NCBI RefSeq assembly: GCF_035751725.1
Contig: NZ_CP142104.1
Location: 4,216,001-4,280,000 of the forward strand
From: Pseudomonas frederiksbergensis
GTDB taxonomy: Bacteria > Pseudomonadota > Gammaproteobacteria > Pseudomonadales > Pseudomonadaceae
Direction of reading: 5' to 3'
Length of the DNA stretch: 64,000 nt
Position 1 is the stretch's first letter. Every line of letters begins with the position of its first letter. This document shows, piece by piece, positions 32,592-57,025 of the stretch. The notes under the pieces were generated by a model. It was not told where the DNA came from, searched no databases, and was given only the letters and a program-made list of their open reading frames with translations. The translations under genes and the position numbers were made by a program.

Positions 32592-33041
32592 CATGGCTTC
32601 CCGATCATGTACTGCGACTAGGTTCACCCCCAAAAGCTCAGGGGCGCTTCAAAATGGTTGATTTCCGAGGGCGGAAGCCTTGCCAGGCGAACGAACGGGC
32701 CTCCACTCCGGGGAATACAATACAGTGAAGATGCACTTTATGACCTATGCGTCACGCTGTTTTGTCCTCAAGGGGCATTTTTTCATGACAAATGAAGCAG
32801 TGTCATTTCTCGCGATCGGATTGGACACCGGACAGGAATGTAGGGGATGGCGATGCAATTGTGTGAGAGCGACGGTAGATTTACCTGCCGTACCCGGTGG
32901 AAAACTGCAGAAGGCGTTTGATTAATTGTGGCGGGGGAGCTTGCTCCCGCTTGAGTGCGAAGCGCTCACAAAAGGGGCTGCTTCACAGCCCAGCGGGAGC
33001 AAGCTCCCTCGCCACGATTCATCCGCACGGTTATGCGGCGG
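32592..33041. other. 450-bp noncoding gap with a REPIN
   Basis: No convincing gene was found here. A REPIN occupies 32929-33016. A GG-N10-GC element on the minus strand (32671-32684, GGCAAGGCTTCCGC) is 80 bp before the KAS III start but lacks TTGC at -12. Composition drops to more A/T-rich DNA at about 32700-32800, which may hold the KAS III promoter. Confidence 0.6.
32929..33016. repeat. REPIN (inverted REP pair) after the glycosyltransferase gene
   Basis: Two oppositely oriented REP cores (GTGGCGGGGGAGCTTGCTCC and its near-complement at 32993-33016) flank about 40 bp with its own short stem (GGGGCTG / CAGCCC). The core (GGCGAGGGAGC type) differs from the GTGGGAGCGGGC-type cores at 7770 and 13357, so two REP families occur in this window. 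Confidence 0.88.
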
Positions 33042-35936
33042 TTAGTTCAGCAAGTCGGTCCAAGGTACGTTGCGCACCGGTCCGAGGGTAAAACCCGCAC
33101 CTTGCAGCGCCAGGTTGCCGTTGTAGAACCGGTCCTGGGCGAACGCCCCGGACCACTTCTCACGCAGCGCCGCAAGCGCCTGCGGCGTACTCGCCAGCAC
33201 GCCGGGCTGGATCACTTGCACATGCGGCGTCCATACCGTCAGATAACCTGCCTGGCCAACCCGGAGGCACAAGTCGACGTCACCCAGCGCATCGTCGAAC
33301 AATGCCGTATCAATGCCGTCGGCCGCTTCGAACAATTGCTTGGCAATCATCAGGCAGGCGAAAGACACCGCCGAACAGTTCTGCTCGACTACCAACCTGT
33401 TCATGTAGCCCCGGACGGTCTTCGGCTCACCGACGAAAGCCGAGCCGACTGTGTCGTTCAGTCCCAGGATCAGGCCAGCCTGGGCGATGCTTCCATCGCG
33501 CTCGACCAGCTTGGCGCCGACCACGCCGACCTCCGGGCGCAACACTTGATTGAGCAGCGATTCGATCCAGTTGACGTTGACCACTTCGCTGTCAGCCGCA
33601 AGCGTCACCAAGTAGTCGCCCTTGGCTTCCTGGCTCACAGCGTTAATCAGGGTCCCCGTCGCGACGCCCGCGTCGATATCCAGCAACCGGACGCGACCGG
33701 CCTGGTGCCCCTGACCGTCGAGCCAGGTGCGCAGCACCGAATGGTTAGCGGTCGGGGTGGGGACCAGCACTTCGTAGCGCTGATATCGAGTGCGCTGCAG
33801 GACGCTGAGCAAACAACGTTGCAACGCTGTCAGATCGCCAATGCCGTGGACAATGATCGACACCATCGGGCGGACGGCAAAGCGATAGTCGATCTTATGC
33901 GTCCCCGGCACCACTGAGCTTACGTCAGCTTGATAGCCACGAACCGCCAGGTGACGCAGCAGTGTCTTGCGCTCATCGGCGTTGTTTTCCGCCGGTGGCG
34001 CCTGGCAGACCAGCAGGGGCTCATCCAGATGAGCAAGCCCTTCCAGTCCGTCCTGCTCGATCAGACGCAACAGTAGGTCGAACTCCATCGCGTTCTTGAA
34101 TTCACGCGAATAACCGCCAAGCTTCAGGAATGTCTCGCGGCGGATCAGCCAATGACGGGCCATCAACGCCGGGTTGCTTTGCAGCAAGTCCAAGTTGAAC
34201 CCAGGCCGGAATACATCAGCCAAGGTCCCGTCCGGCTGGCGCTGGAACTCGTCCATTGCCACGGCCTGGCACTGCCCAGCGTCCAGTAGCTCCAAACCCG
34301 CGCGGAACAGGCCTCCCGGCGTGACTTCATCGCCGGCTTCGGCCATGACCACCCAATCGCAATCGATCTGGTTGACCACCTGATTGATCTTCTCGACGTA
34401 ATTGCTTTCGTTGACCTTGACGAAATGCAGGACGTTTTGTGGCGTCGTCTCGGCCGGCAGGTCGCCGGTGGTGAACACCACAATCTTGAACGCCCGGCAG
34501 TAGCCGTTGATTATGCTGTCGAAGGTGGCCTGCATCTTGAAAATGTCGGCTTCCAGATCGAGGATCAAAATACCGAAGGTAGGTCCACCGTTGCGAGCGG
34601 CCAGGTATTGGGACACTTTCTGAGCTTCACTGGCACTCGGTTCGCGCGCCTCGAGCCAACGCAGCAATTGACCGGAGCGCGTGGCGTCGAACAACCTCGC
34701 GGTATTTTCAAACGCCGAAGCCTTGAGTCGTTGGTCCCAGGCCTGAAGCATCTGCACGTAGCGCGTGTCACCCTTGGCCTGCATGAGCCCGAGCAATTGC
34801 TTCACCAGATCCTGATTGAATGCATAGCTCAAAAAAGCCCTCGCCAGCTGTTCATCAAGCGGTTCGGCACTGGTATTGCGCTGAGGGCGCGACAGTTCTT
34901 TCTGCCTGAGCATGACCGCTTCCAGCTCTCTCAGCTGCACCTGTCCGCTTGGCGCCGCATGAATCAGGAATTCCAGCGCCGCGAGCACATCGAAGAAAGC
35001 CTGGTTGTAAAAAGGCAACTCAACGTACTGCGTCGGCTCGAAACGTCGGATCGGTTCGCCACGCCGCGAATCCCAGGTCGATTCGAACAGTTTCCCAGCC
35101 TGCGGCGCCGAACGCTCGACCAGCTTCTTGAGTATGGCCCGGGCATGTTCCAGCGCCGAATCATCCATACCAGAAGCGCTGGTCAGCATCGTGGCCATGC
35201 GTTCCTGTTCAGCGACGGCTCGCAAGTCCTCGGTACCAGGCGCCGTGCCGACGGGGTTGCATGGCTTCGCCACGCGACTACGCTCGTTTACGCCATGGGG
35301 AATGTCCAGCAAGCGGACCCTTGCATCCGTCACCAACCCAAGGGAATGACCAGCCTCCTGCAACCGAGAGTCAAAATCGGCGGGCAACGAAGCGTAGCTG
35401 CGCCGCAGGGTTTCAGTGCGTGTCACCGCGTTAACCAGTGAAGGACAATCTTCAGCAAACACCGTCAGCCGAGCTTCGGCCGATGCGCCGGAGTAATCTT
35501 CGCAGCCCTTGCGATCGAGCAAATAATAGTCGACACGGTCGGCATGGGCCTCGAACGCCAGGCTGTAGCCTTGGCATACGCCATATTCAGCATGCGCCTC
35601 CAGGAAACTCAACGATTGTTCGAGCGCCTGGGGTAGCAGGAAACTTTCGGCATCGGCAATCGCCAGGTAAGGCGTGGCAACGCGCTCGAGGGCCTGGCGA
35701 ACCTTTTCGCCGAAGCCGCGCGCCTCAGGCGCATGCAGGCACTGCACGCCGGGGAATGCCATCGAGATACTGCCATCGATCCGGCTTGATGAGTCAACCA
35801 CCAACACGGCGAATGAACTGTCGCGGTAATAGCGCAACGCCCGCCGCAGGGCGGTCGACTGGTCATGAGCAAGCAGTACCAGCGTAAACCGTTCACTCAA
35901 CGGCGCAGTCGTTCCTGTTGGGACATTGCTTTGCAT
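33042..35936 (-). CDS. Giant flagellar glycosyltransferase A (TIGR00180-like plus two GT2 modules)
   Basis: This roughly 964-residue protein probably transfers a sugar to flagellin or extends the glycan. Residues about 17-290 resemble the TIGR00180-type glycosyltransferase region (FTLVLLAHDQ, DSSSRIDGS, IADAESFLLP). Residues about 450-690 form a GT2-like module (VMAEAGDEV). Residues about 700-960 form a second GT2 module (SIIVHGIGDLTALQRCLLS, LAADSEVVNVNW). It ends with the tail GPVRNVPWTDLLN and has no C-terminal GT4 domain, unlike its two paralogues in this window. It is 62 bp after glycosyltransferase B. I chose the ATG at 35936, six bases after AAGGA. Donor and acceptor are unknown. Confidence 0.85.
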   Translation of the reverse strand: MQSNVPTGTTAPLSERFTLVLLAHDQSTALRRALRYYRDSSFAVLVVDSSSRIDGSISMAFPGVQCLHAPEARGFGEKVRQALERVATPYLAIADAESFLLPQALEQSLSFLEAHAEYGVCQGYSLAFEAHADRVDYYLLDRKGCEDYSGASAEARLTVFAEDCPSLVNAVTRTETLRRSYASLPADFDSRLQEAGHSLGLVTDARVRLLDIPHGVNERSRVAKPCNPVGTAPGTEDLRAVAEQERMATMLTSASGMDDSALEHARAILKKLVERSAPQAGKLFESTWDSRRGEPIRRFEPTQYVELPFYNQAFFDVLAALEFLIHAAPSGQVQLRELEAVMLRQKELSRPQRNTSAEPLDEQLARAFLSYAFNQDLVKQLLGLMQAKGDTRYVQMLQAWDQRLKASAFENTARLFDATRSGQLLRWLEAREPSASEAQKVSQYLAARNGGPTFGILILDLEADIFKMQATFDSIINGYCRAFKIVVFTTGDLPAETTPQNVLHFVKVNESNYVEKINQVVNQIDCDWVVMAEAGDEVTPGGLFRAGLELLDAGQCQAVAMDEFQRQPDGTLADVFRPGFNLDLLQSNPALMARHWLIRRETFLKLGGYSREFKNAMEFDLLLRLIEQDGLEGLAHLDEPLLVCQAPPAENNADERKTLLRHLAVRGYQADVSSVVPGTHKIDYRFAVRPMVSIIVHGIGDLTALQRCLLSVLQRTRYQRYEVLVPTPTANHSVLRTWLDGQGHQAGRVRLLDIDAGVATGTLINAVSQEAKGDYLVTLAADSEVVNVNWIESLLNQVLRPEVGVVGAKLVERDGSIAQAGLILGLNDTVGSAFVGEPKTVRGYMNRLVVEQNCSAVSFACLMIAKQLFEAADGIDTALFDDALGDVDLCLRVGQAGYLTVWTPHVQVIQPGVLASTPQALAALREKWSGAFAQDRFYNGNLALQGAGFTLGPVRNVPWTDLLN

Positions 35937-35998
35937 ATTCATTCCTTAACAAGTGGGTGGCCGCATCAGCGACACCGGGAGTTTCGCGGGGAAACCCA

Positions 35999-38900
35999 TC
36001 AATCCGGCAGCCAACCATTGGCCCAGTACTGCAGGTTATCGCCGCGCAAGATAAAGTCGCGCAGCACCACTTCACGTAATTCGTCGCCCATCCGGTAACT
36101 GGCAATCGGATCTGCCAAATGCATACGGATTGCCTCAAGCCACTCTTCGGTACTGTTGGTGAGGACTCGCGTGCAAGGCAAATGACCTCGGTAGGCCTCC
36201 GTATCCGAGCAGATGACTGGATAGCCACACGCACCGTACTCCAACAGGCGAAGGTTGCTTTTGCAGTCGTTGAATATATGAAATTCCAACGGCGCCAGGG
36301 CCAAGTCCAAATTCAGACTGGCCAGTTTTGCCGGATAAAGCGCAAGGCTAACGCCTGGATGGAATTCATGGATATAGGGCTTGAGCAAATCGGGGCACAT
36401 GCCAAAGAAAACCCATTCGACTTCATCAGCGAGTTCCCGAACGACATCGGCGATAAGCTCCAGGTCGCCACGGTGGCTGGTGCCGCCCCCCCAACCGATA
36501 CGCGGCTTGCTGGAGGTCGCACGCTGGCTTCGAAGCTGGTTCCACAGGCCGGCCGCCAGCATGTTCGGCACGACGCGAATATCGTGGTGCATGCTCGACA
36601 AAGCGTCCGCCAACGGATGGGTGGACACCACGACCCGATCGCACTGGGCGATACCTTGGCGCAGCAAGTCTTCGAGGTTGTCCGGCATATTGCGACGGTG
36701 TTCGTTTTTCTCCGGGACCCTGGCGATGTAATCATCCAGTTCATAGATGCGCATGGCCTTGGAGTAAGTCTTGACCTGGGCAATGTCCTTGAACTTACCC
36801 ACGTTATAGCGACCCTGGAGAATGATCACATCCGGTGACTGGCGCTCGATGTCAATGATCGAGGGCGTATCGTAGGCAACACGCCCGACGATTCGACCCG
36901 CCGCCTCCAGCTCGAACAATGGCTGGCTGACCCGGTAATGCCCCACCGCCGAGGTGTTGACCGCCATCCCCAGGATCGAGGGCACGTTACGGGTGATCAA
37001 CGGATTCCAGCCGGTGCGTGGCCCGGGTTCAAGGCTGAAGCTTTTTCCGGTCAGGGTCAGGTTACGGTTGTAGGCGGGATCGTTGGCGATTTTGGGCAAC
37101 CAGCGCTGATAGAATGCCTCCTGCTCCTCCTCCAGCCGCTGCTTCCAAGAAGGATCACGACCAGGCTCCACACCGGAGGCCAGCACGACATCGCTGTATG
37201 GCGTGGTGACGATCAGGTAACCGTTTTTTCCGACCTGCTGGCACAACTCCAGAGAATTGATGCGCTGCGTTGTGATCGACTCATCGAACCCGCCAGCTTC
37301 CTCCAGAACTTGCTTGCGTACCAACAGGCAATGATCGCCAACGGCGCTCCAGTTCTGCACGGTCTGCAAGCGCTGCATGTAGCCGCCAGACGTTACCGAT
37401 TCGTTGACAAAGGCCCTGCCCGCCAACCCGCCCATCCCCATGATCATGCCGGCATCGATGACCCGGCCCTGCTGGTTAAGCGTGCGAGGCCCCACGATAC
37501 CGACCTCGGGGCGTTGCCCATGATTGAGCAGCTCATCCAGCCAAGCGGCTTCCAGCACGATGCAATTGGGGTTGAGCAATAACAGATATTCGCCACGGGC
37601 ATGCTGTAGGGCGAAGTTGCGGATCACTGCTTCACTACTACTTCCCGGGTGCAGGAGTATTCGCAATTTTTCGCTGCCCAGCTCAGCCATGCCCCGCAGC
37701 CAATGCTGCAGCGCGGCGTTTTCACTGGCGTTATCGACAATGATGATTTCGTAGTGCGGATATGTCGTCGCACTGAGCAGGCTGTTGATACAACGCTCCA
37801 GCGCACTCAGGTCATCCTTGACGCTGATGACGATCGACACCAGAGGACGCTCGGCGAAGAGGTATTCAATGCGCGGAACCAGCGCGAGGAGCGCCCCGGG
37901 GTGAAGCCGGTGCGGAATGCCGATACGCTGCAGATGCGCACTGATCAGCCGGGTGTTTTGCTCGATGACTTCCGGCTGCGACAGCCATTGGGCGAACGAT
38001 AACGTCGACTCGACCTGGACTTCAGGGATATGACCAATAACTTGCGGCCCGTCCGTTTCGACCAGTCGCCAGATCAAGTCATGGGGCGCCAATTCGCCCA
38101 GGCTCGAATCGAATCCACCCGAGGCCAGGAATCGCGCGCGCTCGAAAGCCAGAGTCCGACCGACATAGGGGTAACCGCGCATCAGATCGAGGTTGAAGTC
38201 GGGCTTGAAGATCGGCTCCGCCGATTTGTCATCCACCAGCGCGCCTTCATCGCTGTAGATGCAGGCAGCACTTGGCGAGCTGACAATCCGGTCGGCCATG
38301 ACCAGGAGCGCAGACTCGGTCAAGCGGTCGCCGGCACGCAGCAGGTAGAACCAATCGGCGCCGTCCAATTGAGGCAAAAGCCCATTGAGCTGCTGCACCC
38401 AGTCAGCCTGCAGTCCAAGGCGCAGGATATGGTTGTCCACACCCTGGCGACCGTTGGACAGCAGCAGCACCGATTCGCAGGCATAGGCCTGGGCCGTGAT
38501 ACTTTGCAGGGTAATGCCGAGCGCATAAGGATCGTCCTGCTCATCGATAATGACGGGGACGATCCTCGGACGATAGGCCCAGCGCGCGATCTGCCGGGAC
38601 AGGACTTGCTTGCGCAATGGACTGAAACGGCGGCACTCCAACCACTGCACATAGAGGTCTGCGTAGCTTTCGATGTCAGTGCCAACTTGCGAGCCGATAA
38701 CGCCCTGCCGAGTCGCGATGACCGAGTAAACGTTTATTTCTTCCCACTCGGTCGCATCCTCCTTGCTTCGGTCCAGCGCCTGGTAACGCACCCAGCCACT
38801 GGCCGGCGCCGGCTCGCCACTGCGCTGGCCAAGCATTTCCTTGAGCCACGTCAGCTCCACCGTGGCCGCTTCAAGCATTTTGGCCTGACGCGCCAGGCGG

Positions 38901-39577
38901 TCCGGATGCAAGCGCTGACCGCTTCCCTCGGCGTACAGTTGGACCAGGTTACCCCGTCGCAACAGGCAGATGAACAAGGCAAAATCCAGGACCGCCTCGA
39001 AGCCTTCGCCGGGCCGCGCCAACGCCGGCAGCAAAGCCTCGACGTCGGTGCGACGCATCAATGCACCACTTAAACCGCCAAGGATATTGCGGGTGGTTTT
39101 TTCAAAATACGCCAGCATGTCGCTGCCGTTGAACAGCGCATCGAACTGGGTGATGCCGGTGTTTTCAACACGGATCGGCAAGGCGTAGTTGTCGGCATCG
39201 ATCAGGTGATGCTTGTTGATCACCAACGATACTTGCGGATGTTCTTGCAGGATGGCCGCCTGCTGGCTGACGCAGAACGCCAGCAACTGATCGTCATCGC
39301 AGAGGAACTTGATGTACTCGCCCCGGGACTCTTCAAGGCAACGCAACAGGTTTTGCTGGAACCCCAGCCGGGTAGGGTTGCGCAGGTAGCGCACCGCAAC
39401 ACTCGAGCCTGCTTCAAGCTCCTGGACAATACGCTCGACTTCATCGCCGCGGCAATCGTCGCAGATTACAATCTCAAGATTCTCGTAGCTCTGCTCGAGC
39501 GCGCTTTGCAAGGCGAGGCGGAAAAAGCGTGAGTGGTACGCGGGGATGGCGATGCTGACAAGAGGAGCTGATTTCAC
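35999..39577 (-). CDS. Giant flagellar glycosyltransferase B (three GT2 modules plus GT4)
   Basis: The protein has about 1192 residues. An N-terminal GT2 domain (VSIAIPAYHSRF, ICDDCRGDE, FLCDDDQL) has an intact DxD-type motif. Two further GT2-like modules follow: about 340-590 (LLRAGDRL) and 595-850 (VSIVISVKDDLSALERCI, LLNPNCIVLEAAW), with poor metal-binding motifs. The C-terminal GT4-like domain (about 880-1190) has the nucleotide-sugar pattern SNLRLLEYGACGYPVIC. P. syringae Fgt1/Fgt2 are comparable large enzymes that glycosylate flagellin. The gene follows flgL by 110 bp. The start may be GTG 39577 (MKSAPLVSIAIP) or TTG 39592. Confidence 0.85.
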   Translation of the reverse strand: MKSAPLVSIAIPAYHSRFFRLALQSALEQSYENLEIVICDDCRGDEVERIVQELEAGSSVAVRYLRNPTRLGFQQNLLRCLEESRGEYIKFLCDDDQLLAFCVSQQAAILQEHPQVSLVINKHHLIDADNYALPIRVENTGITQFDALFNGSDMLAYFEKTTRNILGGLSGALMRRTDVEALLPALARPGEGFEAVLDFALFICLLRRGNLVQLYAEGSGQRLHPDRLARQAKMLEAATVELTWLKEMLGQRSGEPAPASGWVRYQALDRSKEDATEWEEINVYSVIATRQGVIGSQVGTDIESYADLYVQWLECRRFSPLRKQVLSRQIARWAYRPRIVPVIIDEQDDPYALGITLQSITAQAYACESVLLLSNGRQGVDNHILRLGLQADWVQQLNGLLPQLDGADWFYLLRAGDRLTESALLVMADRIVSSPSAACIYSDEGALVDDKSAEPIFKPDFNLDLMRGYPYVGRTLAFERARFLASGGFDSSLGELAPHDLIWRLVETDGPQVIGHIPEVQVESTLSFAQWLSQPEVIEQNTRLISAHLQRIGIPHRLHPGALLALVPRIEYLFAERPLVSIVISVKDDLSALERCINSLLSATTYPHYEIIIVDNASENAALQHWLRGMAELGSEKLRILLHPGSSSEAVIRNFALQHARGEYLLLLNPNCIVLEAAWLDELLNHGQRPEVGIVGPRTLNQQGRVIDAGMIMGMGGLAGRAFVNESVTSGGYMQRLQTVQNWSAVGDHCLLVRKQVLEEAGGFDESITTQRINSLELCQQVGKNGYLIVTTPYSDVVLASGVEPGRDPSWKQRLEEEQEAFYQRWLPKIANDPAYNRNLTLTGKSFSLEPGPRTGWNPLITRNVPSILGMAVNTSAVGHYRVSQPLFELEAAGRIVGRVAYDTPSIIDIERQSPDVIILQGRYNVGKFKDIAQVKTYSKAMRIYELDDYIARVPEKNEHRRNMPDNLEDLLRQGIAQCDRVVVSTHPLADALSSMHHDIRVVPNMLAAGLWNQLRSQRATSSKPRIGWGGGTSHRGDLELIADVVRELADEVEWVFFGMCPDLLKPYIHEFHPGVSLALYPAKLASLNLDLALAPLEFHIFNDCKSNLRLLEYGACGYPVICSDTEAYRGHLPCTRVLTNSTEEWLEAIRMHLADPIASYRMGDELREVVLRDFILRGDNLQYWANGWLPD

Positions 39578-39687
39578 ACGCTTGGCTCTCAACCGGTGGG
39601 CGCCAACTCAGGCGAGAGCAGGACGTCCTGAATCGTATAAAGAAACGGGTCGGGGACCGCTTATAGCATCACGGCCCCTGCCCTGGA

Positions 39688-48277: not shown

Positions 48278-49429
48278 CTAGGTGGCAAGCGCCGCCAACG
48301 CACCGCCGAGCACATCGACAACCCGGTCTTGCTGTTCATTCGTCAAACCGAGCCATAGCGGCAATCGCAACAGACGCTCGGAATACCCGTCGGTTATGTC
48401 CATCGAGCCGTGCACGCGCCCATACCGCATCCCGCCGGGCGACGAATGCAGCGGTACGTAGTGGAACACCGCGTAGATGGCGTGGCTCTTGAGTTTTTCA
48501 AGAACAACTTGGCGCTCGACACCAGGCGCCAGCAGCACGTAATACATGTGCGCATTGTGCTGGCAATTTTCAGGCACTATTGGACGACGCAACAATCCTT
48601 GCAGCTCAAGCTCTGCCAAAGCGCCATGGTAGTGATCCCAGATTGCCAAGCGGCGATTGGTGATGGACTGAGCCTCTTCCAACTGGGCCCAGAGGAAGGC
48701 AGCCGTCATTTCTCCGGGCAGGAACGAGGAACCCACCTCTTGCCAGGTATATTTATCTACCTCGCCCCTGAAGAACCGACTGCGATCGGTGCCTTTCTCG
48801 CGGATGATCTCGGCGCGCAAGGCCATGGCTGGATTGTTGGCCAGTAAAGCCCCACCCTCCCCCGAGATCACGTTCTTGGTTTCGTGGAAACTGAACGCCC
48901 CAAGGTCGCCGATGCTGCCCAACGCACGCCCCTTGTAAGTCGACATCACGCCTTGCGCAGCGTCTTCCACCACCGCCAACCCATGCTTGTGCGCAATCGC
49001 CAGTATCGTGTCCATCTCGCAGGCCACGCCGGCATAGTGAACAGGCACGATAGCTTTGGTCCGCGACGTAATTGCAGCCTCGATCAAGCGTTCGTCCAGG
49101 TTCAGGGTATCGGGTCGTATATCGACGAAGACCGGCACCGCGCCACGCAGCACAAAGGCGTTGGCCGTGGAAACGAAGGTGAACGAAGGCAGGATGACTT
49201 CGTCGCCAGGCTGGATATTCAACAGCAGCGCCGCCATTTCCAGCGCAGCAGTACATGAATGGGTGAGCAACGCCTTGTTGCAGCCCGTGTGCGACTCCAG
49301 CCAGCCATGACATTGCTTGGTGAATGGACCATCACCGGCGAGCATGTTGCCGAACTTGGCCTGGGCAATGTAGTCCAGCTCCTTGCCGGTCATGAACGGG
49401 CGATTGAACAGGATTGTTTCTTGACTCAT
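48278..49429 (-). CDS. DegT/DnrJ-type nucleotide-sugar aminotransferase (WecE-like)
   Basis: This PLP enzyme of 383 residues resembles WecE/VioA, which convert dTDP-4-keto-6-deoxyglucose to a 4-amino-4,6-dideoxyhexose. The Schiff-base Lys is in SFHETKN (Lys185), and the PLP-Asp region VVEDAAQGV is intact. The ATG at 49429 follows GGGGA. It is the last gene of the sugar operon. Viosamine on P. syringae flagellin is made by a related aminotransferase, so a 4-amino sugar for flagellin is a reasonable inference. No rmlA/rmlB genes are in the window. Galactose or glucose configuration cannot be told. Confidence 0.88.
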   Translation of the reverse strand: MSQETILFNRPFMTGKELDYIAQAKFGNMLAGDGPFTKQCHGWLESHTGCNKALLTHSCTAALEMAALLLNIQPGDEVILPSFTFVSTANAFVLRGAVPVFVDIRPDTLNLDERLIEAAITSRTKAIVPVHYAGVACEMDTILAIAHKHGLAVVEDAAQGVMSTYKGRALGSIGDLGAFSFHETKNVISGEGGALLANNPAMALRAEIIREKGTDRSRFFRGEVDKYTWQEVGSSFLPGEMTAAFLWAQLEEAQSITNRRLAIWDHYHGALAELELQGLLRRPIVPENCQHNAHMYYVLLAPGVERQVVLEKLKSHAIYAVFHYVPLHSSPGGMRYGRVHGSMDITDGYSERLLRLPLWLGLTNEQQDRVVDVLGGALAALAT

Positions 49430-49480
49430 TGCAAGTTCCCCTGGGTGGGCATGGTCATGGGTGGCGCACAGCACAAGGCA

Positions 49481-50158
49481 TCAAACTGCACTGATCCGCC
49501 CACCTATCTGGCTGCCTATGTCGAGATTTTCATAGAAATATGGGGTGAAGCCGGCACGTTTCATGGCGAGCTGGGTTTCGCCGATGTCGTATTCCACCCG
49601 GTGCAAGTTGAACGCTTCACCGTCCCAGGTGGCGAACGCTGCCCGGGGATCACCGTCACGTGGCTGGCCGACTGAACCGGGATTGCAATAGACCTTGTCC
49701 TCGCCGAGCCATAGGTGCTGGACATGGGTATGACCCGATGCGAAATATCGGCCGGGCAACGGCGCAAAGTAGGCCTGCGAGGGACGCACGTACTCGTCCA
49801 GCGGATCGCTCCAGCCACCATGGACGATGCTCAGTCCGTCCTCCGTGGAGCGCTCCGGGAGCGATCCCAACCAGGCCAGGTTCTGCGCAGTGATAACACC
49901 CTGTTGATAGTCGAGGCAGGTATTGGCGCTGTTGGAACGAGGGCATCGCTCATCCCTGGCCAGATACCAGTCATGGTTGCCCATCACCGAGAATATGTTT
50001 CGCTCGCGCAGGGCCTCGCAACACTCGTTGACTTGACTGTAGTAACCGGCCGTATCGCCCAGGCAGATGATCCGCGATACGCCGAGCCCATCAAGCTTGG
50101 CAAGCACTGTTCGAAGGGCGCTGTAATTGCCATGTACGTCAGAAATGATCCCGATCAT
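49481..50158 (-). CDS. Calcineurin-like metallophosphoesterase of the sugar operon
   Basis: The 225-residue protein has all the core motifs of the superfamily: SDVHGN, LGDTAGY, GNHDWY, and GHTHVQH near the C-terminus, so a two-metal active site is expected. It resembles YfcE/MJ0936-type phosphodiesterases in size. The substrate is unknown. Its start overlaps the ATP-grasp gene by 20 bp, which implies tight coupling of the two products. It might remove a phosphate or nucleotide from a sugar or sugar-acid intermediate. A TTG at 50164 is an alternative start. Confidence 0.85.
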   Translation of the reverse strand: MIGIISDVHGNYSALRTVLAKLDGLGVSRIICLGDTAGYYSQVNECCEALRERNIFSVMGNHDWYLARDERCPRSNSANTCLDYQQGVITAQNLAWLGSLPERSTEDGLSIVHGGWSDPLDEYVRPSQAYFAPLPGRYFASGHTHVQHLWLGEDKVYCNPGSVGQPRDGDPRAAFATWDGEAFNLHRVEYDIGETQLAMKRAGFTPYFYENLDIGSQIGGRISAV

Positions 50159-51116
50159 AGACAATGAAATCCTCTATATAACGAACAGCGAAGCCAGTGC
50201 GAATGGTTGGCTGGGCCAGTGTCTTGCCGTCGAGGTAATAATCCAGGCACATCGCGGCCTCGTTGTAGCCAAACGCGCGACGTATCGAGCTGGTCGAGGA
50301 GATTCGCGGATTGATCTCGAGCAGGCTCCATGAGCCGCCCTTGCCACGACGGAACTGCAAGTTGGTCGGCCCTACCGGCTTGAAGGCACGGCACAGCCTG
50401 GCGACCACATCGTCCAGCGAATCGTCCTGGTACACCCAGGCCTTGGCAGTGGATCCATCGGAAGCCAGCTTGCGCTGGAAGGCAATCATTGGACCGGTAT
50501 CACCTCGTCCGTCGCCAAACGCCGCCACGGTGAATTCGTCGGCGGCGCTGCCAATGATCGGCTGGGCCATGAGGTAGTCACCCAGCAGTGCGGCGTGCGG
50601 GGTGAAATCGCCCTCCTCGCGAACCCAGACCAGCCCTTTGGAGGCGTAACTCCGGCGCGGCTTGAGCAGGAACGGCAGGCCCAAGGCAGCCTTGAGCGAA
50701 TGGAAGTCTCCCGCCAGCAGGCTGGGAATACGGCTGGAATCCCCGAGGGCCAGCAGCGCCTGGTCCATCGCCCACTTGTCCCTGGAGAGTTCGATCAACT
50801 GCTGGTTGTTGAGCACGACCTGACAATCGAACGTGTCCAAGAAGGCTCGGTGGTCCGAGAACCAGTGGATATCCTGTTCGATTCCAGGAATCAGCAGATC
50901 GACTTTGTGCAGGGCCAGGGTATCGCCCAGCCACTGGCTATAACCGGGGTCAGCCGTCAACGGAGCTTGCACGAACACGTCGCTCCAGCCACGGCCGACC
51001 GCATCGTCGTAGATGTCCGTGCCGACCAGGCGAACAGCGGGATTTGCCGCACGCAGCGACTTGAGCAGGCCATAGCCCATGATGGCGCCTACTCCAGTCA
51101 CCATGACGGTCTTCAT
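50139..51116 (-). CDS. ATP-grasp ligase of the sugar operon
   Basis: The 325-residue protein has an N-terminal Rossmann-like pre-ATP-grasp domain (VMVTGVGAIMGYGLLKSL, LVGTDIY) and an ATP-grasp domain with the phosphate/metal-binding pattern LLEINPRISSTSS. Relatives include carbamoyl-phosphate-synthase-like and PylC-like ligases that join a carboxylate to an amine through an acyl-phosphate. The substrate is unknown. Attachment of an acid to the amino group made by the downstream aminotransferase is one possibility. It overlaps the epimerase stop by 4 bp (ATGA) and the phosphoesterase start by 20 bp. Confidence 0.82.
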   Translation of the reverse strand: MKTVMVTGVGAIMGYGLLKSLRAANPAVRLVGTDIYDDAVGRGWSDVFVQAPLTADPGYSQWLGDTLALHKVDLLIPGIEQDIHWFSDHRAFLDTFDCQVVLNNQQLIELSRDKWAMDQALLALGDSSRIPSLLAGDFHSLKAALGLPFLLKPRRSYASKGLVWVREEGDFTPHAALLGDYLMAQPIIGSAADEFTVAAFGDGRGDTGPMIAFQRKLASDGSTAKAWVYQDDSLDDVVARLCRAFKPVGPTNLQFRRGKGGSWSLLEINPRISSTSSIRRAFGYNEAAMCLDYYLDGKTLAQPTIRTGFAVRYIEDFIVYDRDHF

Positions 51117-51961
51117 GACAGGATCTCCCGCTGCACTCGCATCAATTCGAAGCCCCGACGAATGTCTATTCGCGGGACGAAATCAATTCGTTCATACAGC
51201 TCATGTGAACAATCGAAGTCAGGCAGATCGGGAATGTCGCTTTTTTCCGGCAGGAAGCGGACAGCCGACGGTTTGCCGAACGCCCTGAATGCGGCATGGG
51301 CGATCTCGGAAAGACGGGGGGATTCGGGATGGCCGCAATTGTAAAAGCCGGTTACGCCTTTCTCCGCCAGCCGAGCGCAGACCTCGGCAAGGTCGCTCAA
51401 ATGCAGGTAGTTGCGCTTGGCGTCATTGCTGCCATACAGCTCGACGGTTTGCCCCGCCTGCGCCTTGTCGGCGATGGCGTAAAGCAACGGTTGATGAGGC
51501 CTGCACTGCTCGTCGCTATCGTAGACCTGGCTGATGCGCAGGACCGTCAACGCCATGCCGCGCTCTTGGCAGTAGAGGCTCGCCGCTTCTTCGGCATGGC
51601 GCTTGGAGAGCGAGTAGATGCCAAAATAGGGATCCGTCGGCTGGTGGCTGGCCCAACGCGACGACAGCAGAATGAACTGGCGTGCTCCGCATTGTTCGGC
51701 CAGTCGACAGGCAGCCAGCGTCCCGACAACATTGTTCAGCTCGGCACGAATCAGATCATCCGGCGCGCGACCACCGAAATCGGCTGCGGCCAACACAACG
51801 ACATCGAAGCGCTCGTCGCAGGCACAGGGTACCTGGCTACTCAGGTCGAAGGTGAGATCGGCCTCCCGACGCCCTGCCAGCTTGACCTGGCCATAGCGTG
51901 ACAGCATTCGGGCGACCGCCTTTCCAATGACCGAAGTACTTCCGATGACCAGGCTTTTCAT
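51113..51961 (-). CDS. NAD-dependent epimerase/dehydratase family protein
   Basis: The 282-residue extended SDR protein has a nucleotide-binding turn near the N-terminus (GSTSVIG, 7-13) instead of the usual GxxGxxG, a VVVLAAA strand and the catalytic YSLSK (Tyr116-Lys120). Members epimerise, dehydrate or reduce NDP-sugars; RmlD-like reduction is possible given the short length. The ATG at 51961 lies inside the methyltransferase stop (ATGA), so translation is coupled. Substrate unknown. Confidence 0.85.
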   Translation of the reverse strand: MKSLVIGSTSVIGKAVARMLSRYGQVKLAGRREADLTFDLSSQVPCACDERFDVVVLAAADFGGRAPDDLIRAELNNVVGTLAACRLAEQCGARQFILLSSRWASHQPTDPYFGIYSLSKRHAEEAASLYCQERGMALTVLRISQVYDSDEQCRPHQPLLYAIADKAQAGQTVELYGSNDAKRNYLHLSDLAEVCARLAEKGVTGFYNCGHPESPRLSEIAHAAFRAFGKPSAVRFLPEKSDIPDLPDFDCSHELYERIDFVPRIDIRRGFELMRVQREILS

Positions 51962-52686
51962 GACTGGACGACTGTCGCTTCCAGCATCATCGCGCAGCAA
52001 AGCTCAGGGTAGTCGATGCCAACAGTGCACATTGCCTGAACGATGTCCGCACCTAAGTTCAATTCTTTCAATTGTCCAGTGGTGAACGGCTTGAGAAACA
52101 CACCTTCCTTGCGCACCACCTGGAGCCCGGCGGCTTCCAACTCAGCGGTCAGGGTTTGTAACGAGTAGCTGCGCACATGGCCCAGCTCCAGATCGCCACC
52201 GCCCAATGCCGTCATATCGCCAAGCAACCCGGCCGCATGGCCTAACCTGCGATGCAACGACTCACCATTGGGAACCAGTACAAAGCAACGGCCACCCGGC
52301 GCCAGGAAGCGCTTGAACCGTCGCAGTATGGTTTGTGGATCCTCGACGTGCTCAAGGACAAATCCCATCACAATCAGATCGAAACGCTTGTCGGTATCGA
52401 AGGTCTCGAAATAACCCTCGACGATTTCCGCCTTACTGTCCGGGTACTGGGACTTGAATTGAGCAATCACCGATGCGGAGCCATCAATGACCGTGTGTTC
52501 ACTGAAAAACCGCGAGAAGCGGTTTGTGCTGAAGCCATGGCCAACACCAAGCTCCAGCAGGCTTTGCGCCTGGGTGCACAGCGCCATGATGCGTTGCGGA
52601 TACCAGTTGAGAATGATGTTGTTGTCATACGCATAGCCAAAGCTGTCGCTGTAGGCTGCGATGAAGGAATCAAGATCGTTGCTCAT
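51958..52686 (-). CDS. SAM-dependent methyltransferase of the sugar operon
   Basis: The 242-residue class I methyltransferase has SAM motif I LLELGVGHG (43-51), the post-I acidic residue VIDGS, and the motif FVLEHVEDP. It is of the UbiE/COQ5-like type often found in glycan loci. By analogy with the 2-O-methyl group on the modified viosamine of P. syringae flagellin it may O-methylate the sugar, but N- or C-methylation cannot be excluded. It overlaps the epimerase gene by 4 bp and lies 45 bp after glycosyltransferase C. Confidence 0.87.
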   Translation of the reverse strand: MSNDLDSFIAAYSDSFGYAYDNNIILNWYPQRIMALCTQAQSLLELGVGHGFSTNRFSRFFSEHTVIDGSASVIAQFKSQYPDSKAEIVEGYFETFDTDKRFDLIVMGFVLEHVEDPQTILRRFKRFLAPGGRCFVLVPNGESLHRRLGHAAGLLGDMTALGGGDLELGHVRSYSLQTLTAELEAAGLQVVRKEGVFLKPFTTGQLKELNLGADIVQAMCTVGIDYPELCCAMMLEATVVQS

Positions 52687-52731
52687 GTCACATGCACTCC
52701 GCTGGGCAGTCAAAGTAATAGTCAGTACAGA

Positions 52732-55700
52732 TCAATCGGCCAGCCAGGCCCGTCGCCAGGCCTCCAGGCGTTCGCCTTCGAGCAACCACTGCGCGCGCAC
52801 CGTCGACTGCAAGGCATCGCCCAAGGCCGCGGACGCGTCGCGGTCTTCCAGATGCAAACGAATCGCCCGGACCCAATCTTGCGTCTGGTTATCTACTCGC
52901 GTCAGCGGCAGAACCTCGCCCCCGACGAAACCCGGCACACGACTGCAAATGACCGGATGCCCGTACGCGGCATGCTGCAACACACGCAAGTCACCCGAAC
53001 AGGCATTGCCAACGGTGTGCGCCATGGGCACCAGTGCCAAGTCAAGATTCAACGCGGCCATGGCTGTTGCCAACTGCTGCTGCGGGACATTGGGGTGTTG
53101 CTCCTTCAGGAATGGCTGCAGCGCCGCAGGGCAGTCACCTAGCACCACCCAATCCACTTCACCCGCGAATGCGGGCAGCACGTCAGCCAGCAGTTGAGTA
53201 TCCTTGCCGCCCAGCCAGCCCAGGCGCGGCTTGGCCCCTACTCTCCGGTTGCTTTGTACACGCCCCCATTCAGCCGGTAGCACGGGCTCCAGCACGCGGA
53301 TGTCGTCGTGCTGGCCTTGCAGCAGTTCAGCCAGCGCCGCCGTGGGGACCAACACCCGATCGACCTGCAGCAGCCCGAACCGCAGACGCTCCAGCAGTTC
53401 ATCGGCAGAGCACGCCCCCTTCAAGTCCACCTCCGGCAAATAACCGTCCAGATCGTAGACGGTAAAGGCCTTGGAAAACGCTCTCAGGCGGCTCAGGGTA
53501 AGAAGCCCGGCATCATCCAGAGGACGCTGCAGCACCACAGCGGTCGGTGCCAGGCGCTCGATCTCCACCGGCGACAACAGACTCGAAACGGCAGCGCCTT
53601 CGATCTGCCCCGCTTCGACCAAAGTGCTGAACGGCTGGACCAGCCGCGAATAGGCCCCCGCCTGCTGGTCGGTGACGCAAACCAACACCTTCGGGACGCT
53701 GCCTTGCAGAGGAAACCAGCTCAGGTCATTGTTTTGCGGAACAAAGCCGCCAGCGGCGCGCAGAGAAAAATTGGCGTTGTAGGCCGGATCGCAGGCCAAC
53801 CGAGGCATCCAGCGGGCAAAAAAGGCATCCTCCTGCTCGCTACTCGCCTGTATATCTGGCAAAGGGTCAACCAACAGTCGTGCAAAAGGCGTCCAGACAT
53901 TCACGTAGCCTGCCTGCTGCAGCTTCAAGCACAGGTCAACATGCGTCCAGGGTGCCAACAGCGGATCGGTATCGAAGCCGCCGGCCTCAAGGAACAGGGA
54001 TCGACGCAGCATCAGACACTCGCCGCCCAGGGCCGAATAGCTCTGCTCAAGTCCGAGCCGTCCCATGTGCCCTGCGGCATGGGCCGACGCGCCCTCAAAA
54101 GCCCGACCGACCACACCACCCAGCCCCAACACCAGGCCCGCCTGGCGTATACGCCCCTGGCTATCCTGCAACTTGCCTCCCACGGCGCCGACTTCCGGGC
54201 GCTGGGCCTGATTGAGCAAAGCTTGCATCCAACCCGGCTCAAGCACAGCACTATGGGCGTCGAGCCAGAGCAAGTAATCGCCCCGCGCCTCCTGCGCCGC
54301 CGCATTGCACATCGCTGCACGGGACTGGCCCGGCATGAACCGCAATAACTGGAAACGGCCTGCACCCATCTGCTCCACCAGCCCCAGCCACTCCAGCAAT
54401 GCCGGGTCGTCGTTGCCCGGTTCGATCAGCAGTACTTCGAAGTCCACGGCGCTGGTCTGTATCAGCAGGCTTTCCAGGCAACGCTGGAAATTTGCCAGTT
54501 GCCCTTCCAGGTAAATCGCAATACTGACCGAGGCCTGTTGTTCGTGGCCGTAGTCGATACGATAACGACTTGGATCCTCTTGCAATGCAATGGCTCGCGC
54601 CTGAGCGTAGCCACGCGCCTGCAGATGAGCTTCCATGACGGCGCGCTCATCGGAGCATTCCGACTGTCGTAATTCGTTGGCGATCAGCAGGGGTTCGCTG
54701 ACATGGCCAATGCTCGCCATCCCTTGCTCGCCGATCAGGCGCAGTTGGTAAGCCAACTCGAAGGCGCCACCGCACGAGGGGTCAAAACCGCTAAGGCGCA
54801 CCAACGCCTCGCGACGATACATCCAGTGGCGGGAAAGACTGGCCGCAGAGGCCAAGAGCAAATCGAGATTCAGGTCGGGCCGCAACGAAAGATTAACGAC
54901 CCCGCCTATACGTACGGCTTCGTCGGCGAAAACCGCCAGGCAACTGTCGGGGGCTTCGAGCAAATTCACCGCCGCCACCAGCAGCCCCGCGGCGACGAAC
55001 GTCTCCCCTGCCTCGACCAACATGAGCCAATCGGTCTGGGTGCCGTCGAGCAAACCATTGATCACTCCCGCCGGTCGGCCGGGATCTCCCTCTACCCATT
55101 GCACGTTGGCACGCGCCGGGTCAGTCCCACCCACCACGCACACATGGATACGCTGATACAGCTGTTGATCCAGGCTGTCCAGGGTCAGGGCCAGCGCCGA
55201 CTGATCTCCATTATCGCGGACCAGAACAGTGAAGCTGGGCGCAGTTGGGCTCGCCAAGCGCTCATTGATCTGGAGCAGTTGCTGAGCGGTCGGGGTACGT
55301 TGGCGCAACCAATCGAGCACACCCAGACGGTTGCCGACCGCCTCGCGATCGGCAGCCTCCTGGGTCCTGTCGATAAACACGTCCAACTGTTGCCAGAACG
55401 ATGCCGTGCGTTCGACATAACGCGGCAAGGCTTCACCGAGGCTAGCTCGAGCATGTGCCAACGGCTCCGGATGATCGAGCATGGCGAAACCGACACTGCC
55501 GAAGAAGCTGTTGTCGAGCAGTGGCTGGTCGACGCCATGGCCTGGAATGAAGATCACCGGGCAGCCACATAACACCGCCATTACGCAGGTCATCGACCAC
55601 TCATAGGAATACATCACCTCTGCCTTGCGCAGCGCCTCGGCCAACTGCGGCAGGGTCAGGGGGTTGGTCATGCTCAGCAGGCGGATATCGGCTGGCAGTA

Positions 55701-56274
55701 GTGAGTAATCGACCTGCTCCAGCGGATGGCGGTTCTGGTAGAGATAACTGCCCGCGCGCTCGGTTCCGGCGGGCGGTGGCGCGAACAGTTCGATGTCGAT
55801 GGCCGGCAGGCACAGCAAGTCGCCATCTGGATCACCACGGTGCTCGGCGAGCCGGGCCGCGTAATAGAAAAACAAGTCGGACGGCGCAGCGTCCATGCCA
55901 TTTCCCGTGAGGAACCCCTCGAAATTCAGCAGGAAACGCGCCACGACCGAACAGTTGAGCGGATTGCCAGGGAACACCTCGGGATAAACCGCAATTGGCA
56001 CTTTGCCTGCCGCCTTATGGCGCTGCTTGATTGCGGAAGTGATGACCGGTGTCTTCAGGTCTGGATTGACCACGTCCGAGCCACACATGTAGGCCTCACG
56101 CCCACTAAGATTGAGCATATGGCAAAGATAGTGCAGGGAGACGACGCCCGACGACGACTCACGGTATGCCGGCGCCAGGAAGTAATAAGGATGCTCGGGC
56201 TTGGCATACATCAACCGCAGACGCGCCAACGCCTGTTCGTGCGAGTAAGCGTCCAGCTGCGCTAGGTTAGACAT
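52732..56274 (-). CDS. Giant flagellar glycosyltransferase C (GT-B-like, two GT2-like and degenerate GT4 modules)
   Basis: The protein has about 1180 residues. Residues about 30-330 look like a GT-B-type domain (VVSLHYLCHMLNLSG, YSYEWSMTCVMAVLCGCPVIFIPG). Two GT2-like modules follow: about 345-600 (LVEAGETF) and 610-860 (LLWLDAHSAVLEPGW). A C-terminal GT4-like domain (about 880-1180) carries LRVLQHAAYGHPVIC, where the usual Glu of the GT4 motif is Gln. The last three modules are clearly paralogous to those of glycosyltransferase B. I chose the ATG at 56274 (MSNLAQLDAYSHEQ), preceded by GGAG; a TTG at 56283 is closer to that site. Substrates unknown. Confidence 0.83.
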   Translation of the reverse strand: MSNLAQLDAYSHEQALARLRLMYAKPEHPYYFLAPAYRESSSGVVSLHYLCHMLNLSGREAYMCGSDVVNPDLKTPVITSAIKQRHKAAGKVPIAVYPEVFPGNPLNCSVVARFLLNFEGFLTGNGMDAAPSDLFFYYAARLAEHRGDPDGDLLCLPAIDIELFAPPPAGTERAGSYLYQNRHPLEQVDYSLLPADIRLLSMTNPLTLPQLAEALRKAEVMYSYEWSMTCVMAVLCGCPVIFIPGHGVDQPLLDNSFFGSVGFAMLDHPEPLAHARASLGEALPRYVERTASFWQQLDVFIDRTQEAADREAVGNRLGVLDWLRQRTPTAQQLLQINERLASPTAPSFTVLVRDNGDQSALALTLDSLDQQLYQRIHVCVVGGTDPARANVQWVEGDPGRPAGVINGLLDGTQTDWLMLVEAGETFVAAGLLVAAVNLLEAPDSCLAVFADEAVRIGGVVNLSLRPDLNLDLLLASAASLSRHWMYRREALVRLSGFDPSCGGAFELAYQLRLIGEQGMASIGHVSEPLLIANELRQSECSDERAVMEAHLQARGYAQARAIALQEDPSRYRIDYGHEQQASVSIAIYLEGQLANFQRCLESLLIQTSAVDFEVLLIEPGNDDPALLEWLGLVEQMGAGRFQLLRFMPGQSRAAMCNAAAQEARGDYLLWLDAHSAVLEPGWMQALLNQAQRPEVGAVGGKLQDSQGRIRQAGLVLGLGGVVGRAFEGASAHAAGHMGRLGLEQSYSALGGECLMLRRSLFLEAGGFDTDPLLAPWTHVDLCLKLQQAGYVNVWTPFARLLVDPLPDIQASSEQEDAFFARWMPRLACDPAYNANFSLRAAGGFVPQNNDLSWFPLQGSVPKVLVCVTDQQAGAYSRLVQPFSTLVEAGQIEGAAVSSLLSPVEIERLAPTAVVLQRPLDDAGLLTLSRLRAFSKAFTVYDLDGYLPEVDLKGACSADELLERLRFGLLQVDRVLVPTAALAELLQGQHDDIRVLEPVLPAEWGRVQSNRRVGAKPRLGWLGGKDTQLLADVLPAFAGEVDWVVLGDCPAALQPFLKEQHPNVPQQQLATAMAALNLDLALVPMAHTVGNACSGDLRVLQHAAYGHPVICSRVPGFVGGEVLPLTRVDNQTQDWVRAIRLHLEDRDASAALGDALQSTVRAQWLLEGERLEAWRRAWLAD

Positions 56275-56323
56275 CGGGTGCAATCTCCAGAATCAAATCA
56301 ATCAGGGGTGTCGCAAGGCCCGC

Positions 56324-57025
56324 TCAGGCAGTCCATTTCTTCAGAAAAGCCGATGCATCCGCGCCGGTATTGAACAATAGGTCGATGACACTGAGCGCAT
56401 GTTGGAACTCTCCGTACACCTGGGGATATTCGGGATAACCTGCATAGCTCATGTACGAGACCGAAATGCCCTTGGCGGCGAACGCCGCTTCGTCGAGGTA
56501 GTGACTGGCTGCCGGTCCCGAGAGGTACTCGCTGGCGCCCAGGGTATGGCACAAATGGATAAGGCGTTCATTCTTGCCCTCCACTCCCCCTAGGTCTTCG
56601 GAACGGTAAAGCGGCGTATGAATTCCCAGCAGGGGACACAAGCCGGCGATGAACAAGTGGTTAATGCGGCTCAGATGAGTCAGGTTGGCAGCCTGCTCGT
56701 AGAGCGCGCGGATCGGCGCCTCCATCTGCGCGAAACACGCTGCGCGCCGGTAGCTCTGCTCGATCGTCTTCCAGTGCGCCGGTGCCCAGTCCGGATGGGT
56801 GATCTGGACCTCATTGATCAACTGTCCGAGACGGCCCTTCTTCATGACCGGAATGCTCAGCCAATGCTCACCCTGGGCAGTCTTGATCTTGTTACGGTTG
56901 CGCCAATCGCTGCGGGTGTACTGCACGTCGTCATAGAGGATGAACGCATCGACGCTGCGGATCAGATCGAAATAGCCCTTCCAGGGAATATAGTTCGACT
57001 GCACCACAGCTATTTTCTTATGCAT
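56324..57025 (-). CDS. WbqC-like family protein
   Basis: The 233-residue protein starts MHKKIAVVQSNYIPWKGYFDLI, the signature of the WbqC-like family found in O-antigen and glycan loci. Conserved segments DDVQYTRSDWRNRN, WLSIPV and LSGPAASHYLD are present. No enzyme activity is proven for the family; roles in amino-sugar acylation or transfer have been suggested. It is the first gene of the sugar operon, with a sigma-54-type promoter 93 bp before the ATG at 57025. The open frame continues upstream, but without family match. Confidence 0.82.
   Translation of the reverse strand: MHKKIAVVQSNYIPWKGYFDLIRSVDAFILYDDVQYTRSDWRNRNKIKTAQGEHWLSIPVMKKGRLGQLINEVQITHPDWAPAHWKTIEQSYRRAACFAQMEAPIRALYEQAANLTHLSRINHLFIAGLCPLLGIHTPLYRSEDLGGVEGKNERLIHLCHTLGASEYLSGPAASHYLDEAAFAAKGISVSYMSYAGYPEYPQVYGEFQHALSVIDLLFNTGADASAFLKKWTA

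Follow-up and report, generated by a model that had tools for sequence, protein, structure and literature searches.

A seven-gene cassette between phhR and flgF in Pseudomonas frederiksbergensis pairs an ATP-grasp ligase with a metallophosphoesterase and is a candidate for tailoring a flagellar amino sugar

We analysed a stretch of 64,000 nucleotides from Pseudomonas frederiksbergensis (contig NZ_CP142104.1, positions 4,216,001 to 4,280,000; hereafter the window, with coordinates counted from its first base), in which seven minus-strand genes (48278..57025) fill the interval between phhR and flgF. With moderate confidence, we consider that the whole is best explained as a horizontally moving cassette for tailoring the glycan of flagellin, in which an ATP-grasp ligase would acylate 4-amino-4,6-dideoxygalactose (Fuc4N). 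There is good support for reading the genes as a plug-in module that serves a flagellar 4-amino sugar. Among the new observations, the strongest is that the ATP-grasp gene and an overlapping metallophosphoesterase (MPE) gene form an obligate pair. The cassette resembles an exchangeable kit for making an unusual amino sugar and putting it on the flagellum, with an ATP-driven ligase and a phosphatase taking the place of the ordinary acyltransferase of related kits. A preliminary description of this DNA had proposed a new way of decorating a flagellar amino sugar, and its interpretation is partly supported by the results below.

The cassette is an insertion between phhR and flgF

The gene order is WbqC, giant glycosyltransferase, methyltransferase (MT), short-chain dehydrogenase/epimerase (SDR), ATP-grasp (ATPg in the schemes below), MPE and DegT/WecE aminotransferase, with phhR (57134-58693, minus strand) upstream and flgF (47367 to about 48104, minus strand) downstream. 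Each of the seven proteins has a Pfam match over cut-off, and their start codons were picked by us. Three of the six junctions overlap (MT/SDR by 4 bp, SDR/ATP-grasp by 4 bp and ATP-grasp/MPE by 20 bp) and the other three are gaps of 45-51 bp, confirming the earlier account of seven genes in one direction, several of them overlapping. No coenzyme A (CoA)- or acyl carrier protein (ACP)-dependent acyltransferase was found by Pfam among the seven, as had also been noted.

The entire block turned up again between phhR and flgF in six further Pseudomonas genomes that we fetched, and is therefore no chance arrangement of open reading frames; protein identity was 77-97%, with the exception of a broken ATP-grasp gene in one of the six. 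The nearest named record in the scan, P. frederiksbergensis SI8, matches the cassette proteins at 99-100% identity. We searched for phhR and flgF in 99 Pseudomonas genomes and found both on one contig within 12 kb in 46. The interval between them measured 209-450 bp in 38 of these, 9.0 kb in two (the window genome and G010; G and L numbers are our labels for genomes and loci) and 0.8 kb in one, where the phhR match was partial. The seven-gene cassette is an insertion at this site.

Five of the 99 genomes (G061, G070, G006, G079 and G044) have an interval of about 2 kb, with other DNA at the same insertion site. In G290 (L029, with matches L013 and L018) the cassette is otherwise complete and the ATP-grasp gene is broken in two pieces with one in-frame TGA, through either sequencing error or decay.

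Related sets lie at flagellar sites

Close relatives of the ATP-grasp protein (at least 64% identity) were present in 13 of 298 Pseudomonas genomes. Seven of these carry the full set at phhR-flgF, and three carry the same set inside the fliC island, between an Fgt gene and KASIII-fliC. Another two (G127 and G226) have the ATP-grasp part near rmlB and a matching giant transferase at the fliC island, which in G226 is accompanied there by WecE; the last, G230, has a GT2/EamA version at neither flagellar site. Because seven sets lie at phhR-flgF, three in the fliC island and two are linked to a giant transferase beside fliC, the set is, as judged from gene neighbourhoods, tied to flagellin more firmly than by position alone. 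The giant transferase itself (at least 52% identity) was found in 17 genomes, which include 12 of the 13 ATP-grasp genomes; this co-occurrence has a hypergeometric probability of 1e-16, uncorrected for kinship. These whole-genome searches scored few candidates per genome (two for the giant transferase, up to six for WecE), and extra copies may be missed. More distant ATP-grasp matches (43-48% identity) were seen in G028, G076 and G280. A Pseudomonas-like Fgt-KASIII-fliC island was also observed in L041, a record titled Pantoea sp. Ap-967.

The aminotransferase points to Fuc4N as the probable sugar

The aminotransferase gene (48278..49429, minus strand; TIGR02379, PRK11706) encodes a WecE-type sugar 4-aminotransferase of 383 amino acids (aa) that scores well over the WecE family cut-offs (631 bits against 435 for TIGR02379 and 615 against 375 for PRK11706). 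Its nearest PDB sequences are 4piw (491 bits) and 6blg (479 bits), followed by a third at 185 bits. We take 4piw and 4zah to be WecE of the E. coli type, to which the cassette enzyme is nearest by sequence. The product of E. coli WecE goes to enterobacterial common antigen, unlike the flagellin proposed here. Of the DegT matches in the genome, only the WecE-type gene spans most of the profile; seven more are shorter and below 37 bits. The genome holds one RmlB copy over cut-off. Together, the family score, the single full-length DegT match and RmlB point to thymidine diphosphate (dTDP)-Fuc4N, of galacto configuration, as the most likely sugar, and not the viosamine of P. syringae. The 4-amino-4,6-dideoxyglucose that had been suggested for this cassette is thus less likely.

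The ATP-grasp and MPE genes form a conserved, overlapping pair

In a wider scan with one genome per species we recovered 132 ATP-grasp relatives, and the counts for 80 loci given here and below concern the best 80 of these 132. These 80 loci span about nine phyla, going by organism name. At 79 of them an MPE gene in the same orientation followed ATP-grasp, and each time the two genes overlapped; the overlap ranged from 4 to 89 bases, with a median of 20 (lengths from the called stop and start codons, the start being the one nearest to the expected place). Of the 298 Pseudomonas genomes, 16 had an ATP-grasp match (E <= 1e-30); the same 16, and no others, had an MPE match (E <= 1e-20), adjacent every time. 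In a 299-genome phylum sample searched with strict profiles, ATP-grasp was found in five genomes, MPE in seven and both in three. We found no description of the pair or of the seven-gene set in the open-access papers searched, subscription journals lying mostly outside the search.

Matches in the flanks of the pair (up to 10 kb) were frequent for WbqC (68 of 80 loci), a relative of the DegT aminotransferase (66), MT (66) and SDR (59), and the best MT match lay upstream in 54 of the 66 MT-positive loci. Either WbqC or DegT was present at 75 of 80 loci; the five with neither (L061, L080, L083, L095 and L101) include some on short contigs. The possibility, raised at the outset, that the pair might sit mainly outside glycan loci is therefore not borne out. 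Two layouts recurred among the loci that we inspected. One combines a WecE of about 50% identity or more with GT2, in several cases with an EamA-type small membrane protein, and in the other both DegT and WbqC are distant relatives and are joined by two paired GH130/GH32-like propeller proteins.

Several variations on these layouts were observed. The GH130/GH32-like propeller family F6 occurs in 30 of the 80 loci, often accompanied by a second methyltransferase, and L059, L064, L089 and L093 have a tandem propeller pair after the MPE. An enzyme family dependent on thiamine pyrophosphate (TPP), F34, stands directly upstream of ATP-grasp and replaces MT-SDR in five loci by clustering (L099 and L105 inspected), and in L068 a split transketolase and an SDR upstream of ATP-grasp replace MT-SDR; these TPP-dependent enzymes may provide alternative acid or sugar precursors. 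L112 encodes a second ATP-grasp protein, of PF13535 type (L112:6329-7456), in the same cluster as the pair, and in L212 and L219 the order is ATP-grasp, SDR, MPE. In four genomes of about 2 Mb that hold an MPE match only (L213-L216), the MPE relative is about 30% identical and lies in open frames of about 530-550 aa; the one that was read, from L213, has an extra N-terminal part, and these long-frame relatives are apparently a different protein.

The pair alternates with acyltransferases in otherwise similar gene sets

We compared all 57 WecE-type loci of the 298 Pseudomonas genomes over an 8-kb span, as far as fetched. ATP-grasp and MPE without a hexapeptide acyltransferase were found at 12 loci, a hexapeptide acyltransferase without the pair at 35 and an MT-TylF-DAO module at four; the remaining six had no pair, acyltransferase or DAO module, and one of them (G226) has its ATP-grasp set elsewhere. 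The pair and a hexapeptide acyltransferase never occurred together (0 of 57), an outcome with a chance of 9e-7 under independence, kinship ignored. Several of the hexapeptide WecE loci are O-antigen-like clusters, and the hexapeptide scan was incomplete, missing an L068 member that Pfam found.

More telling than these counts are swaps within the same frame. GT2-[MT-SDR-ATPg-MPE]-EamA-WecE in L030 is matched by WbqC-GT2-[MT'-PglD-propeller]-EamA-WecE in L188. Likewise, in the fliC island, WbqC-giant GT-[MT-SDR-ATPg-MPE]-WecE (GT, glycosyltransferase; L024-L026) is matched by WbqC-[MT'-TylF-DAO]-WecE-giant GT (L160-L162), and the query for MT' and TylF also matches in L163. Alternation of this kind supports, without proving, acylation of the amino sugar by the ATP-grasp enzyme. 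The swaps and the 57-locus survey both favour the original view of a flagellar amino-sugar set with ATP-grasp where related sets have an acyltransferase.

In L160-L163 (G190, G057, G189 and G102), a module of MT, a TylF-like protein and DAO, a flavin adenine dinucleotide-dependent oxidoreductase, stands in place of MT-SDR-ATPg-MPE, and WbqC, the WecE-type gene and the giant transferase are retained.

Properties of the cassette proteins

The ATP-grasp ligase (50139..51116, minus strand; 325 aa) has PF15632 ATPgrasp_Ter as its only Pfam match, scoring 43.2 against a cut-off of 29.1, and reaches 204.6 bits against NCBIfam PRK12767.1-1 (carbamoyl phosphate synthase-like), under the cut-off of 218. 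Residues K114, K152, E194, R215, E267, N269 and R271 are invariant (100% of 81 sequences); we take K152, E267, N269 and R271 to be conserved nucleotide/metal residues. The nearest PDB entry to its fold model (predicted local distance difference test, pLDDT, 91.6) is 2pn1, followed by PurK, biotin carboxylases and PylC, and PylC and an L-amino acid ligase are both among the 50 PDB neighbours listed. The modelled protein has an ATP-grasp fold with conserved residues, as in carboxylate-amine ligases.

The MPE (49481..50158, minus strand; 225 aa) is calcineurin-like (PF12850, 71 bits against a cut-off of 27). D7, H9, D35, N61, H62, H113, H143 and H145 are found in 100% of 80 sequences and T144 in 94%, presumably corresponding to the calcineurin-like motifs D-x-H, GD, GNHD, H and GHTH. 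Its model (pLDDT 96.5) lies nearest to 3rqz, an uncharacterised protein, and to SapH (3qfm), a diadenosine tetraphosphate (Ap4A) hydrolase/phosphodiesterase.

The first cassette gene (56324..57025, minus strand) encodes the WbqC-like protein (PF08889, 257 bits, E 2e-76), for which we found no significant match among solved sequences. It is retained in flagellar sets with ATP-grasp and in sets without it. The giant multidomain glycosyltransferase (52732..56274, minus strand; 1180 aa, with PF00535 at 585-715 of the 1183-aa open reading frame) is proposed to be the dedicated transferase of the finished sugar. It resembles two flagellin glycosyltransferases encoded in the window, both Fgt-like: one of 1197 aa (35999..39592, minus strand; 33% identity over residues 281-1180) and one of 966 aa (33042..35942, minus strand; 36% over 319-856). 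The MT gene (51958..52686, minus strand) encodes a class I S-adenosylmethionine-dependent methyltransferase (PF13489) whose nearest solved chain, 2p7h, is entitled 'Hypothetical protein'. We considered a VioM-like role for MT by similarity and rejected it, because MT does not truly resemble the 211-aa MT found in the DAO-module sets. The SDR gene (51113..51961, minus strand) encodes an extended short-chain dehydrogenase/epimerase family protein of 282 aa (PF01370) in which Ser100, Tyr116 and Lys120 are conserved in 97-98% of 60 sequences.

A proposed pathway and its alternatives

We propose that RmlB would provide dTDP-4-keto-6-deoxyglucose, which the WecE-type enzyme, by family knowledge or the precedent of P. 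syringae, would aminate to dTDP-4-amino-4,6-dideoxygalactose (Fuc4N). The ATP-grasp enzyme would then activate a small free carboxylic acid as an acyl-phosphate and attach it to the 4-amino group, replacing a hexapeptide acyltransferase; its fold, its residues and the alternation described above all suggest that it forms the N-acyl bond. The MPE would dephosphorylate either the acid or the product of ligation. This role is a guess; MPE and ligase are so strictly paired as to suggest that one of them works on what the other consumes or makes, and an acid bearing a phosphate that the MPE takes off would account for this. MT and the dehydrogenase would modify the sugar or its acyl group, and the giant transferase would add the finished sugar to a rhamnose-based glycan built on flagellin by Fgt enzymes, the rhamnose acceptor being suggested by family knowledge or by P. 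syringae. For the acid, the MPE substrate, the dehydrogenase reaction and the function of WbqC, the proposal is guesswork.

Several points weigh against this pathway. We found no assay or glycan structure for the seven-gene set. The pairing has exceptions, with L078 lacking an MPE match and, of the two ATP-grasp-only genomes of the phylum sample, both with a distant relative of 28-30% identity, L217 lacking an MPE and L218 having a weak one (E 2e-5); because of these last two, the pairing is, in the sequences compared, a property of the closer family. PurK and biotin carboxylase chains rank nearer than PylC to the ATP-grasp fold. With SDR found at 59 of 80 loci and MT at 66, we are unsure that both share in the same reaction. 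The value of 9e-7 overstates independence, because the genomes counted are akin and their loci are of more than one kind, and some of the 35 acyltransferase matches are weak (20-37% to the query) or lie on the opposite strand. In the distant locus L068 the pair stands next to a hexapeptide protein, and in L088 and L106 such a protein lies within 5.6-8.8 kb. Finally, flagellar genes lie near the pair at just 19 of the 80 wider loci, so the pair would serve other glycans too.

A broader and more tentative reading, which we regard as possible, is that the overlapping ATP-grasp and MPE genes are a general two-step unit for acylating nucleoside diphosphate-4-amino sugars in many phyla. The ligase would couple a phosphorylated acid, such as 3-phosphoglycerate or a phospho-hydroxy acid, and the MPE would then remove the phosphate, leaving an N-acyl group made without CoA or ACP. 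The unit would take the place of hexapeptide acyltransferases, plugging into operons for flagellar and for lipid-linked sugars.

It is doubtful, in our view, that the MT-SDR-ATPg-MPE block acts instead at the level of the sugar backbone or the nucleotide, the MPE serving for example as a nucleotide-sugar hydrolase and the nitrogen being acylated by WbqC or left free. Such a division of labour would suit an MPE with an Ap4A hydrolase/phosphodiesterase and an uncharacterised protein as its nearest solved relatives, and a WbqC that lacks a significant solved match and is present at 68 of 80 loci. WbqC, however, stays in the sets with hexapeptide acyltransferases and in those with DAO modules, and so does not track the acylation module.

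We consider it unlikely that the ATP-grasp enzyme is a PurK/CarB-like carboxylase that turns bicarbonate into carboxyphosphate and places a carbamate on the sugar nitrogen, which MT could cap as a methyl carbamate. The place of PurK and biotin carboxylase chains directly after 2pn1 among the structural neighbours, the matches of the ATP-grasp profile to CarB and PurK by sequence, and the MT relative at 66 of 80 loci, upstream at 54, would all fit such an enzyme. A bare carbamate would be labile, however, and the pair stands without an MT match in L044 and in L028/L045 (the latter two being one genome); moreover, the MPE would be left without a job.

We regard it as improbable that the target of the set is lipopolysaccharide or another surface glycan and that its flagellar neighbours are there by chance. 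Related sets (L030, L049, L050 and others) do resemble lipid-carrier sugar pathways in carrying GT2 together with a small membrane protein of EamA type, but 10 of the 13 Pseudomonas genomes have the set at flgF or flanked by Fgt and fliC, two more have the giant transferase beside KASIII-fliC, and the flagellar neighbours of the pair extend to Janthinobacterium, Kiloniella, Bacillus and others.

Comparison with known systems

Flagellar sugar caps vary among bacteria and bear on motility and host recognition. The comparisons that follow refer to the available portions of the cited papers. The closest functional model for the cassette is the viosamine island of P. syringae (vioA-vioM-vioT-vioS-vioB-vioR-acp), in which VioT finishes a rhamnose glycan on flagellin (PMC3927599); the logic is the same, with a different acylation route and probably a different sugar, the aminotransferase here being of WecE type. 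Both form a separate block that combines a sugar aminotransferase and a methyltransferase with a giant transferase (VioT 1173 aa, 1180 aa here), the likeness to VioT, VioM and VioA being drawn from size and family. In P. syringae, N-acylation involves KASIII, a ketoreductase, ACP and VioB, none of which is among the seven genes here, where ATP-grasp and MPE are found instead; the vio block also lies between gs and hk, whereas the cassette lies at phhR-flgF.

ATP-grasp enzymes in flagellin glycan tailoring are not new as such. In the type B locus of C. difficile (CDR20291_0244-0247), the flagellin glycan of an ATP-grasp mutant ends before the sulfonated peptidylamido sugar, the exact role of the enzyme being left open in that paper (PMC5207246). 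Like the cassette, this locus combines ATP-grasp with a relative of sugar aminotransferases (FdtB-like). Its ATP-grasp protein belongs to PF13535, however, and not to PF15632, its partners are FemAB-like and ornithine cyclodeaminase-like, neither of which is among the seven genes here, and no MPE, WbqC or SDR is mentioned in the locus as described there. The decoration route put forward as new in the preliminary description is therefore not wholly new in kind (PMC5207246). Methyltransferase and ATP-grasp also occur together in the flagellin modification operon sfmABCDE of Shewanella oneidensis, where loss of the predicted methyltransferase or of the ATP-grasp protein SfmE shifts flagellin migration (PMC3765264); SfmA resembles PseI, suggesting a nonulosonate-type pathway, and the available text mentions no MPE or WecE. 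An island between fliA and fliC of Dickeya zeae, with WbqC, DegT, a methyltransferase and a glycosylase (PMC9650423), resembles the wider family of cassette-type sets as far as it is described. The main text of a paper on Enterobacteriaceae flagellin islands contains no ATP-grasp, carbamoyl, WbqC or phosphoesterase (PMC4875605).

If the proposed pathway is correct, one gene pair, recognisable by its overlap, would mark CoA-independent acylation of amino sugars from Pseudomonas to Bacteroidota, Bacillus and candidate phyla. The natural swaps among ATP-grasp, DAO and hexapeptide modules in similar operons offer a ready comparison of what each module contributes.

Other features of the window

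The window also contains a flagellin glycosylation island with flgL, the two large Fgt-type transferases, KASIII and fliC, the gene names being our reading of the proteins. The KASIII homologue beside fliC (31665..32633, minus strand) had been put forward as a possible acyl source. We rejected it as a cassette-specific acyl donor: KASIII also lies beside fliC in L160-L163, L166 and L172, whose genomes have no ATP-grasp match at E <= 1e-30. An ATP-grasp ligase would in any case use a free acid and not acyl-ACP.

Scans of the window for regulatory signals gave one sigma-70 site against 3.5 expected and three terminators against 9.8 expected, and the sigma-28 pattern, which carried no chance control, had no minus-strand match just upstream of WbqC. 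In PADLOC, MT matched the mad2 methyltransferase region and the MPE had a match that was marginal; we take both as generic.

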